NCBI GenBank assembly: GCA_947168855.1
Contig: CAMVNO010000005.1
Span: forward strand, 152,439-216,438
DNA length: 64,000 bases
Source: an uncultured Clostridia bacterium
GTDB taxonomy: Bacteria; Bacillota; Clostridia; Christensenellales; CAG-138
Direction of reading: 5' to 3'
The first letter of the stretch is position 1. Every line of letters starts with the position of its first letter. Positions 12,660 to 56,515 of the stretch are shown here, in pieces. The notes beneath the pieces were generated by a model. The model was not told the DNA's origin, ran no database searches, and worked only from the letters and a program-made list of their open reading frames with translations. Made by a program: the position numbers and the translations under genes.

Positions 12660-13843
12660 GCAAATCATATCGTCATACAACCACTTATATCACCAAAGCG
12701 GCGTTCATCGCGGCGCTCTACGTCGTGCTGACCGTGCTGTCCGCGCAATTCGGGCTGTCCGGCACGAACGTGATCCGGTTCCGGCTTTCCGAAGCGCTGA
12801 CCATCCTGCCGTTCTTCACGAGCGCGGCGATCCCCGGTCTTGTGATCGGGTGTTTTCTGTCCAATCTGTTGACCGGCGCCGCTGTCTGGGACGTCGTGTT
12901 CGGCACCGTCGCCACGCTGATCGGCGCGGTCCTCACCTATGCGCTGCGCCGGTACAAGTGGCTTGCGCCGATCCCGCCGATCGTTGCGAATACCGTGATC
13001 GTGCCGTTCGTGCTGCGCTACGCCTACGGCTTTACCGACGCCTTCTGGTTCCTTGCGCTGACCGTGTTCGTCGGCGAATTCGTCTGCTGCGGGATCCTGG
13101 GCATGCTCCTGCTGTTTGCGGTGAACAGGCATGCCGATCTCGTCCGGGACAAGGAGCCGGAACCGCACGAGCGGCGGACGTTCAAAGAGGTGTTCCCGGC
13201 GTATGTCTGGATCTGCTTCGCCTATCTTCTGATCATCGACCTTGCCGTGTTTTACGGCACGCGCCCGTTCCTGCCGTATCTTCCGGTACACGAGCTTGCC
13301 ACGCCGGTGGATGCAAAGATCCCGTTCCTGCCGCCGTGGATCATTGTTTACGTGCTGTCGTTTGTGTCGTGGCTCGTCACGATCATCTGGATCCTTGCGG
13401 AGAGCAAAAAGCATGCGTACCGGCTGTGCGGCGTCTATACGATCATCGTGATCCTGTCCGGCATCTGCTTCCTCGCGTATCCGGCCATGATCCAACGCCC
13501 CGAGATCACGGAGCCCGGTCTGTTCAACGACTGGATGCGCCTTCTGTACCGGCTTGACGCGCCGCAGAATCTCTGCCCGTCCTTCCACGTCGTCATCAGC
13601 TATATCTGCTGGCGCTGCACGATGGACTGCAAAAAGATCCCCAAGTGGTATCAATGGTTCAACCTTATCTTTTTGATTCTCGTCTGCTTCTGCATTCTGT
13701 TTGTCAAGCAGCACTATCTGATCGACATCCCCGTCGCGCTCGTCATCACCGAAGGCGCGATCCAGATCGGACGGCTCACGCGCATCGAACGCATCGGGTT
13801 TGCGATCGAAAACCGGCTCCGCAAGCGTCCCGCGGCGGAATAA
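12656..13843 (+). CDS. QueT-family ECF substrate-binding protein fused to PAP2-family phosphatase domain
   Basis: N-term ITKAAFIAALYVVLTVLSAQFG...IRFRLSEALTILPFFTSAAIPGLVIGCFLSNLLTGAAVWDVVFGTVATLIGA (QueT); C-term PSFHVVISY...KQHYLIDIPVAL (PAP2 C2/C3 motifs); one uninterrupted ORF. Confidence 0.85.
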   Translation: MSKSYRHTTTYITKAAFIAALYVVLTVLSAQFGLSGTNVIRFRLSEALTILPFFTSAAIPGLVIGCFLSNLLTGAAVWDVVFGTVATLIGAVLTYALRRYKWLAPIPPIVANTVIVPFVLRYAYGFTDAFWFLALTVFVGEFVCCGILGMLLLFAVNRHADLVRDKEPEPHERRTFKEVFPAYVWICFAYLLIIDLAVFYGTRPFLPYLPVHELATPVDAKIPFLPPWIIVYVLSFVSWLVTIIWILAESKKHAYRLCGVYTIIVILSGICFLAYPAMIQRPEITEPGLFNDWMRLLYRLDAPQNLCPSFHVVISYICWRCTMDCKKIPKWYQWFNLIFLILVCFCILFVKQHYLIDIPVALVITEGAIQIGRLTRIERIGFAIENRLRKRPAAE

Positions 13844-13853
13844 ACAACAAAAA

Positions 13854-13884
13854 GGGGCTGTTTAAAAACGCTTTGAACAGCCCC
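13854..13884 (+). terminator. Terminator-like hairpin after queT-PAP2; first module of hairpin array 1L
   Basis: GGGGCTGTT (13854-13862) / AACAGCCCC (13876-13884). Confidence 0.7.
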
Positions 13885-13996
13885 AATGCATTCTCGCTTC
13901 GCTCCGTGAATTGTCCAAAGGACATGAATTGTGCCTTGCGGCACATGAATTGACGCCGAACGGCGTCATGCAGGAAGATTTTCCGTACGGAAAATC
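13854..13996 (+). repeat. ATGAATTG-hairpin array, element 1L (plus orientation)
   Basis: (A)TGAATTG spacers at 13907, 13924, 13945 followed by hairpins GTCC-AAA-GGAC, GTGCC-TTGC-GGCAC, GACGCC-GAAC-GGCGTC; ends in palindrome GATTTTCCGTACGGAAAATC (13977-13996). Confidence 0.9.
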
Positions 13997-14129
13997 AACA
14001 TTCATGTGACCTTTGGTCACAATTCATGCCGAAGGCAATTCATGGCGCAGCCAATTCATGCGGCAACGCCGCAATTCATCGGGGATGTTAAGAACTGCCG
14101 ATCAGAGTTTCTTAACATCCCCGTTTTTT
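13977..14129 (-). repeat. ATGAATTG-hairpin array, element 1R (minus orientation; shares the central palindrome with 1L)
   Basis: CAATTCAT spacers at 14020, 14036, 14052, 14072 with hairpins GTGACC-TTT-GGTCAC, TGCC-GAA-GGCA, TGGC-GCA-GCCA, GCGGC-AAC-GCCGC. Confidence 0.92.
14080..14129. terminator. Strong hairpin with U-tract on + strand and A-tract (U-tract on - strand) before it; first module of element 1R
   Basis: CGGGGATGTTAAGAA (14080-14094) / TTCTTAACATCCCCG (14109-14123) followed by TTTTTT. Confidence 0.85.
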
Positions 14130-14170: not shown

Positions 14171-14431
14171 TCAATCCTTTTTCCGGGCGACCTCGGCGAT
14201 GTCCGGCCAGCGCTTCAGAATGTACTGTATCGCATTGCGTGAATGCGGGATCATGCAGTCCGTGCAGTTTTTGATCCCGTTCTCCAGATAGGTGAAGTTG
14301 CCGCCGCATTTGTCGCCGAGCATATACAGCGGGCAATAGCAGAACAGGCAGTTGAAATTCTCCGGATGGTCGGTCTTATGACACGGAAAATATTTGCAGT
14401 CGGTATTCTGAAAAAAAGAATCGCTGTTCAT
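14171..14431 (-). CDS. Cysteine-rich small-domain protein (cobalamin-locus associated)
   Basis: CKYFPCHKTDHPENFNCLFCYCPLYMLGDKCGGNFTY...CTDCMIPH. Confidence 0.8.
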   Translation of the reverse strand: MNSDSFFQNTDCKYFPCHKTDHPENFNCLFCYCPLYMLGDKCGGNFTYLENGIKNCTDCMIPHSRNAIQYILKRWPDIAEVARKKD

Positions 14432-33023: not shown

Positions 33024-33102
33024 ATGTGTACAAGCTGCCCCTCTGGGGCGATGGTACAATCAATTCCTCGTGACCCGGAAAATGTCTTTTCCCGTACCGT
33101 CC

Positions 33103-33278
33103 AAATCGGCAGGTTTCCTGGCTCGCGGCCTGAGACGCCTTCGCCTTCCCGATTGCTCAGTGGCTGCTGTTCGCATGATGGCGTCAATCCGCATACAGTG
33201 ACGAGATCGCACAGGCGTTTCACCTGTTTCCCTTTTACCCGCTGCGGCGAGGCAGCGGCACCGATTGCTGATTCAGTT
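33103..33278 (-). ncRNA. Cobalamin (AdoCbl) riboswitch
   Basis: minus strand: AAAAGGGAAACAGGTGAAACGCCTGTGCGATCTCGTCACTGTATGCGG...CCACTGAGCAATCGGGAAGGCG...GAGCCAGGAAACCTGCCGAT (B12-box-like core). Confidence 0.93.
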
Positions 33279-33287
33279 TTCTGTATT

Positions 33288-56260: not shown

Positions 56261-56291
56261 AGGGGATGTTAAGCATTTCTTAACATCCCCT
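56261..56291 (+). terminator. Terminator-like hairpin after glmS; first module of hairpin array 2
   Basis: AGGGGATGTTAAG-CATTT-CTTAACATCCCCT perfect 13-bp stem; no U-tract follows it directly. Confidence 0.7.
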
Positions 56292-56398
56292 ATGAATTGC
56301 AGCACGGCTGCATGAATTGGCTGCGCCATGAATTGCCTTCGGCATGAATTGACAATGGAATTGTCATTATGGATGGTTTTCCGTTCGGAAAACCATCC
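56261..56398 (+). repeat. ATGAATTG-hairpin array, element 2
   Basis: ATGAATTG at 56292, 56312, 56328, 56344 with hairpins GCAGC-ACG-GCTGC, TGGC-TGC-GCCA, TGCC-TTC-GGCA, GACAAT-GGA-ATTGTC; ends GGATGGTTTTCC-GTTC-GGAAAACCATCC (56371-56398). Confidence 0.93.
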
Positions 56399-56515
56399 TT
56401 TGTGCCGGATCGACCGCAGAAGACGCCGGGGTAGTCCTGGAGCATGCCGCAGCGCTGAGGATCGGCAGCGCGATCAGCAAAACAGTCAATCATTTCTTCA
56501 TTGCGGAATCGTCTT

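Follow-up and report, generated by a model that had tools for sequence, protein, structure and literature searches.

A symmetric hairpin array between convergent genes represents a seldom-described repeat family in gut Clostridia

Layout of the element

The window analyzed here, a 64,000-nucleotide stretch from an uncultured Clostridia bacterium, carries at positions 13854-14129 a symmetric array of short hairpins with ATGAATT or AATTCAT between them. The array lies between the QueT-PAP2 gene on its left (plus strand, stop codon ending at 13843) and the end of the cobalamin operon on its right (minus strand, last gene 14171-14431, with CbiC before it). What kind of sequence is this, and what might it do at the ends of the genes that face it? 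We find that such arrays form part of a gut Clostridia repeat family that has seldom been described. The unit is a 5-nucleotide linker (TGAAT, or CGATA in a sister family) plus a short hairpin, strung into arrays; in the form found here, which we term class I, a palindrome sits between two arrays of opposite orientation, two terminal caps close the structure, and the whole is dispersed as one block. Class I is, in our view, probably a hairpin element interspersed in the manner of BOX or MITE repeats that serves as a bidirectional 3'-end module, with a function and a mobilizer that we infer from sequence. A search of open-access journal papers returned no description of TGAAT linker-hairpin arrays.

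The element is non-coding, roughly 270 bases long, and bounded by its two terminal hairpins (13854-14123, bounds taken from 25 aligned copies with unrelated flanks). From left to right it consists of a terminator-type hairpin, the constant motif CTCGCTTCGCTCC, three small hairpins with ATGAATT, a 20-bp palindrome, four small hairpins with AATTCAT, a second terminator-type hairpin, and T6. The left terminal hairpin, GGGGCTGTTTAAA-AACGC-TTTGAACAGCCCC, occupies 13854-13884, beside an A-tract (13849-13853) that is a U-tract for a minus-strand transcript. The right one, GGGGATGTTAAGAA...TTCTTAACATCCCC (14081-14122), adjoins a T-tract (14124-14129) that is a U-tract for a plus-strand transcript, so that the outward T/U-tract of the composite on the plus strand continues to 14129.

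The left arm reads on the plus strand and comprises CTCGCTTCGCTCC (13893-13905), a motif seen too in composites of other families, and three canonical hairpins, each preceded by a TGAAT linker (13907-13911, 13925-13929, and 13946-13950): T-GTCC-AAA-GGAC-A (13912-13924), T-GTGCC-TTGC-GGCAC-A (13930-13945), and T-GACGCC-GAAC-GGCGTC-A (13951-13968), which are helices 1 to 3 of the covariation alignment described below. The central palindrome GATTTTCCGTACGGAAAATC spans 13977-13996; TTTTCCGNNCGGAAAA occurs 22 times in the genome. The right arm reads on the minus strand, and its four hairpins, T-GTGACC-TTT-GGTCAC-A (14005-14021), T-GCC-GAA-GGC-A (14027-14037), T-GGC-GCA-GCC-A (14043-14053), and T-GCGGC-AAC-GCCGC-A (14059-14073), are helices 5 to 8 of the same alignment. 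Each is followed by ATTCA, or TGAAT on the minus strand (14022-14026, 14038-14042, 14054-14058, and 14074-14078). The first-pass annotation of this DNA had described these hairpins, the 20-bp palindrome, and a terminator-like hairpin at either end; every hairpin was found where it had been placed, the palindrome and both end hairpins are present, and all details checked agree with the sequence.

In the window, ATGAATTG has 10 occurrences where 1.9 would be expected, a count that 0 of 100 shuffles attained. The ten are confined to two clusters, at 13924-14079 and 56292-56351. The second cluster marks a half copy (about 56266-56400) that retains a terminal hairpin, four hairpins, and the centre and has lost the right arm. 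Matches to the element were absent from a phage collection and a plasmid collection, and we rejected an origin from either. The window also contains a cobalamin riboswitch at 33091-33280 on the minus strand (93 bits).

The repeat unit and its folding

Among 82 distinct inserts compared from host-genome loci, the linker core TGAAT is constant; each hairpin, whose short stem is GC-rich, is closed by the T and A that flank this core, as a T-A pair that is sometimes replaced by C-G. The second pair is nearly always G-C, while the inner pairs are of several Watson-Crick types. Stems of at least 4 pairs form in 70% of the inserts, compared with 19% (maximum 30%) when the 3' halves were re-dealt. The spacing from linker to linker is variable, at 16 to 22 bp and more; a coding function was rejected because units of 16-22 nucleotides, with a few longer, do not keep a reading frame. 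The earlier statement that this is not a CRISPR is borne out, as the repeat measures only 5-8 nt and the inserts are self-complementary, with none of the direct repeats of at least 20 nt and unique spacers that define such loci.

As RNA, the element folds with an energy of −131 kcal/mol (z = −11.7), which none of 200 shuffles equalled. Local hairpins alone account for about −103 kcal/mol, and arm-to-arm pairing for the remainder. Covariation, which the first-pass annotation had proposed as a check, is strong. When 19 distinct class I cores from two species were aligned, 98.2% of pairing cells were paired, compared with at most 42.5% when the partners were slid by 1-3 columns. Both sides have changed in 14 of 48 pairs, including three pairs of helix 2 and five of helix 5, whereas the slid controls gave no more than 2 such pairs; 71 cells carry both-side changes, against a shuffle mean of 20.7, and none of 500 shuffles reached 71. 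Class II arrays, which lack the terminal ends, show the same behavior: between orthologous arrays of different species, the linkers are largely kept and the hairpins are swapped for other complementary hairpins. Hairpin structure is thus under constraint, with sequence free and pairing kept. No Rfam family reached its gathering threshold in the region (best RAGATH-32, 17.7 bits versus 41.8).

Dispersal, relatives, and a candidate mobilizer

The pattern ATGAATTG-N6-20-ATGAATTG has 95 matches in about 40 clusters of the 2.42-Mb host genome (G000), while the reversed control has 0; this census uses the exact linker pattern and misses degenerate arrays, and the genome sequence examined consists of stretches around arrays. 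About 25 of the clusters are class I composites. Near-identical sequence is shared by eight class I copies, including the one in the window, at sites that are unrelated (two lie 1.6 kb from each other); the identity stops at the terminal hairpins, beyond which the flanks differ entirely. The relative G021, a second species, carries a separate set, whose copies are near-identical to one another and have a different second hairpin. Dispersed, near-identical, non-coding copies with fixed ends, as expected of a MITE, are found in both sets. The array had been put forward as open to refutation if the pattern proved unique to these loci, and the 95 matches show that it is not.

Not all copies are recent, since species share some of their class I and class II sites. 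Copies also exchange parts: ends are chimeric, modules are swapped, unit number differs from copy to copy, and identical hairpin cassettes recur across many arrays. The element is absent 3' of the QueT-PAP2 ortholog in 12 relatives, where the next genes are mostly different, and is absent after the 98%-identical gene in G021. No clean empty site was found among the relatives' orthologous sites, because synteny of the neighbours is lacking or other repeats fill the site. In one relative (G004, locus L235), a CGATA/GATAT tail-to-tail array lies 3' of the QueT-PAP2 ortholog, where the host genome has the TGAAT element; at another orthologous site (L053 near 2500 and L279 of G021), one species has a GATAT-type linker and the other a TGAAT-type linker. 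In G003 and G006 (L281, L282, L284, L286, and L288), GTAG-type palindromes and other repeats have intruded into the hairpin loops and arms of class I copies, and the resulting larger composites are present at two or more sites. In G021, several contigs terminate within or next to an element copy, which means that copies break metagenome assemblies.

We propose that the block spreads by transposition in trans, possibly through an IS1182-type transposase. An intact IS1182 transposase is present in G021, and the host genome has a broken remnant only. In G003, a class I copy ends in a close match to the right-end hairpin of the G021 IS1182, whose left end is similar to that of the subfamily. PF13751 had no match in four genomes of other families that carry composites, and IS1182 was rejected as a general mobilizer on this basis; in those families the end hairpins vary by locus. 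No target-site duplication is visible beside the near-identical copies, whose flanks are AAA and TTT. Because of these two results, we keep the IS1182 link as a lead within the genus, one suggested by the similarity of the ends.

The family extends well beyond the host. The sister family with linker CGATA has the same layout within the genus, and its pattern matched in 23 of the 23 genomes of the genus searched, with up to 107 matches against 0-4 in controls, some matches being due to chance. Across the order, the TGAAT pattern was found in 42 of 396 genomes and 26 of 142 genera, although some single matches may be chance. A linker-agnostic scan of the collected loci returned TGAAT, CGATA, and TGATA only; other linkers may exist elsewhere, as the scanned loci were mostly picked by the TGAAT pattern. 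Most named records that contain arrays come from uncultured Clostridia, with many of them obtained from the gut of ruminants, and two of them are close relatives of the host genome, with flanking proteins 88-94% identical. Heptamer tandems of TGAATTA/TGAATTG with no hairpins occur in three genomes of one genus in another family (L255-L257; G408, G311, and G130).

Tail-to-tail composites occur in families f4, f14, f16, and f19 and in another genus of f1, several of them with CTCGCTTCGCTCC. In several composites of other families, a centre segment (e.g., TGAATTGCAACC) is the reverse complement of 9-13 nt of the last hairpin's 3' arm, and two folds therefore compete. At L333-L350 (f4, f14, f16, and f19), the centre segment is repeated directly in the 5' arm of the last hairpin, at a spacing of about 91-98 bp, a possible two-state fold in which the two would vie for one 3' arm. 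Such competition is not obvious in the window copy.

Placement at gene ends and competing explanations

Class I copies lie at gene 3' ends. Where both neighbours were called, 14 of 24 copies are between convergent genes, compared with a background of 18% (p = 1e-5), and 0 of 24 are between divergent genes. The terminal hairpins are polar across the 24 copies: U makes up 5 and 4 of 8 on their outward sides and 1.6 and 1.75 of 8 on their inward sides. A consensus terminator scanner called no terminator at the element despite these outward U-tracts.

Because the end hairpins bear U-tracts outward only, far-end termination is predicted for both mRNAs. The block would act on RNA at the gene 3' end: a convergent transcript would pass the near hairpin, which lacks an inward U-tract, continue across the array, and terminate where the far hairpin presents a U-tract on its outer side. 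Since transcripts are expected to end at the far hairpin, each mRNA would gain the hairpin chain, which may cap its 3' end against exonucleases, and each may be insulated from the opposing gene. If far-end termination is correct, convergent mRNAs would overlap across the whole element, which would be a distinct mode of forming 3' ends in uncultured gut Clostridia. The first-pass annotation had offered a structured 3'-UTR RNA and a mobile hairpin element as separate possibilities; sequence evidence supports the two jointly, as probable readings, and its third option, a protein-binding DNA array, is not required to account for the data.

One-directional class II arrays also prefer one strand. 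In tandem gene pairs, 34 are sense and 7 antisense (p = 1.3e-5), and they usually lie closer to the downstream gene start; a few class II contexts are uncertain because genes were called by a codon-usage script. Sense arrays upstream of or between genes would probably serve as structured leaders or intercistronic spacers. At least one one-directional array lies upstream of an apparent conserved promoter region, so not all of them are leaders. Names read from translations make the genes 3' of leader arrays look unrelated (Tdh, MurG, a response regulator, MutY, a CoA transferase, LysC, and others), and a shared regulon for 5' arrays was rejected on this ground.

By layout, the closest analogue of class I appears to be BOX, a boxA-boxBn-boxC composite of Streptococcus pneumoniae with variable inner modules, a strong RNA fold, ends that resemble those of a resident IS (ISSpn2), and over-representation between convergent genes; SPRITE has AAAA/TTTT ends, and no target-site duplication could be established for it (PMC3049150). 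In layout only, BOX/SPRITE and class I are alike in composite build, variable modules, fold, and convergent bias, and possibly in IS-like ends. However, BOX modules are sequence conserved, whereas class I hairpins are free in sequence and share only the constant 5-nt linker; class I also has two arrays in opposed orientation, with a terminator-type hairpin turned outward at either end. IS1182-family MITEs resemble class I as small dispersed non-coding blocks, and possibly in having ends like those of a resident IS1182, and differ from it on the points of target-site duplication and other families given above. Hairpin-cluster intrinsic terminators are short hairpins just after stop codons for which joint action in termination has been proposed (PMC8355165); those are ordinary unrelated hairpins, while the arrays here form one repeat family in which the linker is constant and the polarity outward.

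How strongly do these features favor a mobile 3'-end module over other explanations? The arrays could instead be a cis-regulatory structured RNA, a riboswitch or protein-binding leader controlling a regulon, with mobility only apparent. Strong covariation, sense-strand bias, arrays kept at orthologous sites, and mutually exclusive long-range pairing in several families would all suit such an RNA, but unrelated genes downstream of leader arrays, variable unit number, the lack of an Rfam family, and near-identical class I copies dispersed at unrelated genes make it unlikely. We judge it similarly improbable that the arrays are a neutral by-product of replication slippage or template switching at inverted repeats, with pairing kept by strand-switch correction rather than selection. 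That process would yield variable unit numbers, chimeric ends, swapped modules, and the same cassettes in many arrays; it sits poorly with a block of roughly 270 bp that is dispersed whole, its ends fixed, and with outward-only U-tracts, 3'-end placement, and sense-strand bias, although these last three could partly reflect selection against harmful insertions only. Convergent placement could also be mere tolerance, as has been argued for pneumococcal repeats (PMC3049150).

A DNA binding array for a nucleoid protein or gyrase, with the hairpins as cruciforms, is very unlikely: a constant linker of constant polarity, a perfect central palindrome, and arm-to-arm complementarity could be read this way, but linker spacing of 16 to 22 bp and more is unlike a phased DNA array, and both the outward U-tracts and the sense bias speak for RNA. 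Least credible to us is a REP/BIME spread by a RAYT (Y1 tyrosine transposase). REP/BIME sequences are short intergenic palindromes that form inverted dimers, reach high copy number, and show compensatory stem changes (PMC3733652), and class I is alike in all four respects; the host genome even encodes one RAYT-like gene (L230:1285-1830; C4, about 245.1-245.7 kb; NF047646, 71.9 bits versus a cut-off of 80). However, that gene is flanked not by this repeat but by GTAG-tagged GGACGGGCATTGCCCGTCC palindromes, a further copy of which lies within its reading frame, and the 3.3-kb locus contains no TGAAT array. Class I units have no GTAG or CGTC tag beside the palindrome, bear TGAAT on both sides of each hairpin, and form tandem strings of different stems, whereas stem sequences are conserved within a REP family. 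The earlier statement that this is not a simple REP element therefore holds, and RAYT mobilization is probably not the route; the GTAG survey does not mention Firmicutes or Clostridia (PMC3733652).

The mobile 3'-end module might also be part of something wider, a lineage-wide RNA code in which a trans-acting RNA-binding factor reads the single-stranded TGAAT/CGATA linker, sense arrays set stability or termination, and cassettes are interchangeable. We regard this as a long shot worth stating; if true, arrays at both the 5' and 3' ends of mRNAs would govern stability or termination genome-wide. Known bacterial hairpin repeats are recognized by conserved palindrome or module sequences, whereas the conserved part here is the single-stranded linker. 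The family is in effect a natural experiment in structure-only constraint, and similarity-based searches would tend to miss such elements. Finally, at L052 (about 2515-2580) and L155, a hairpin array is separated from an OmpR-type response regulator gene by a conserved, repeated TTGTTACAAC-TATTA-TGTTACAAT that lies upstream of this gene and is possibly an autoregulatory site.
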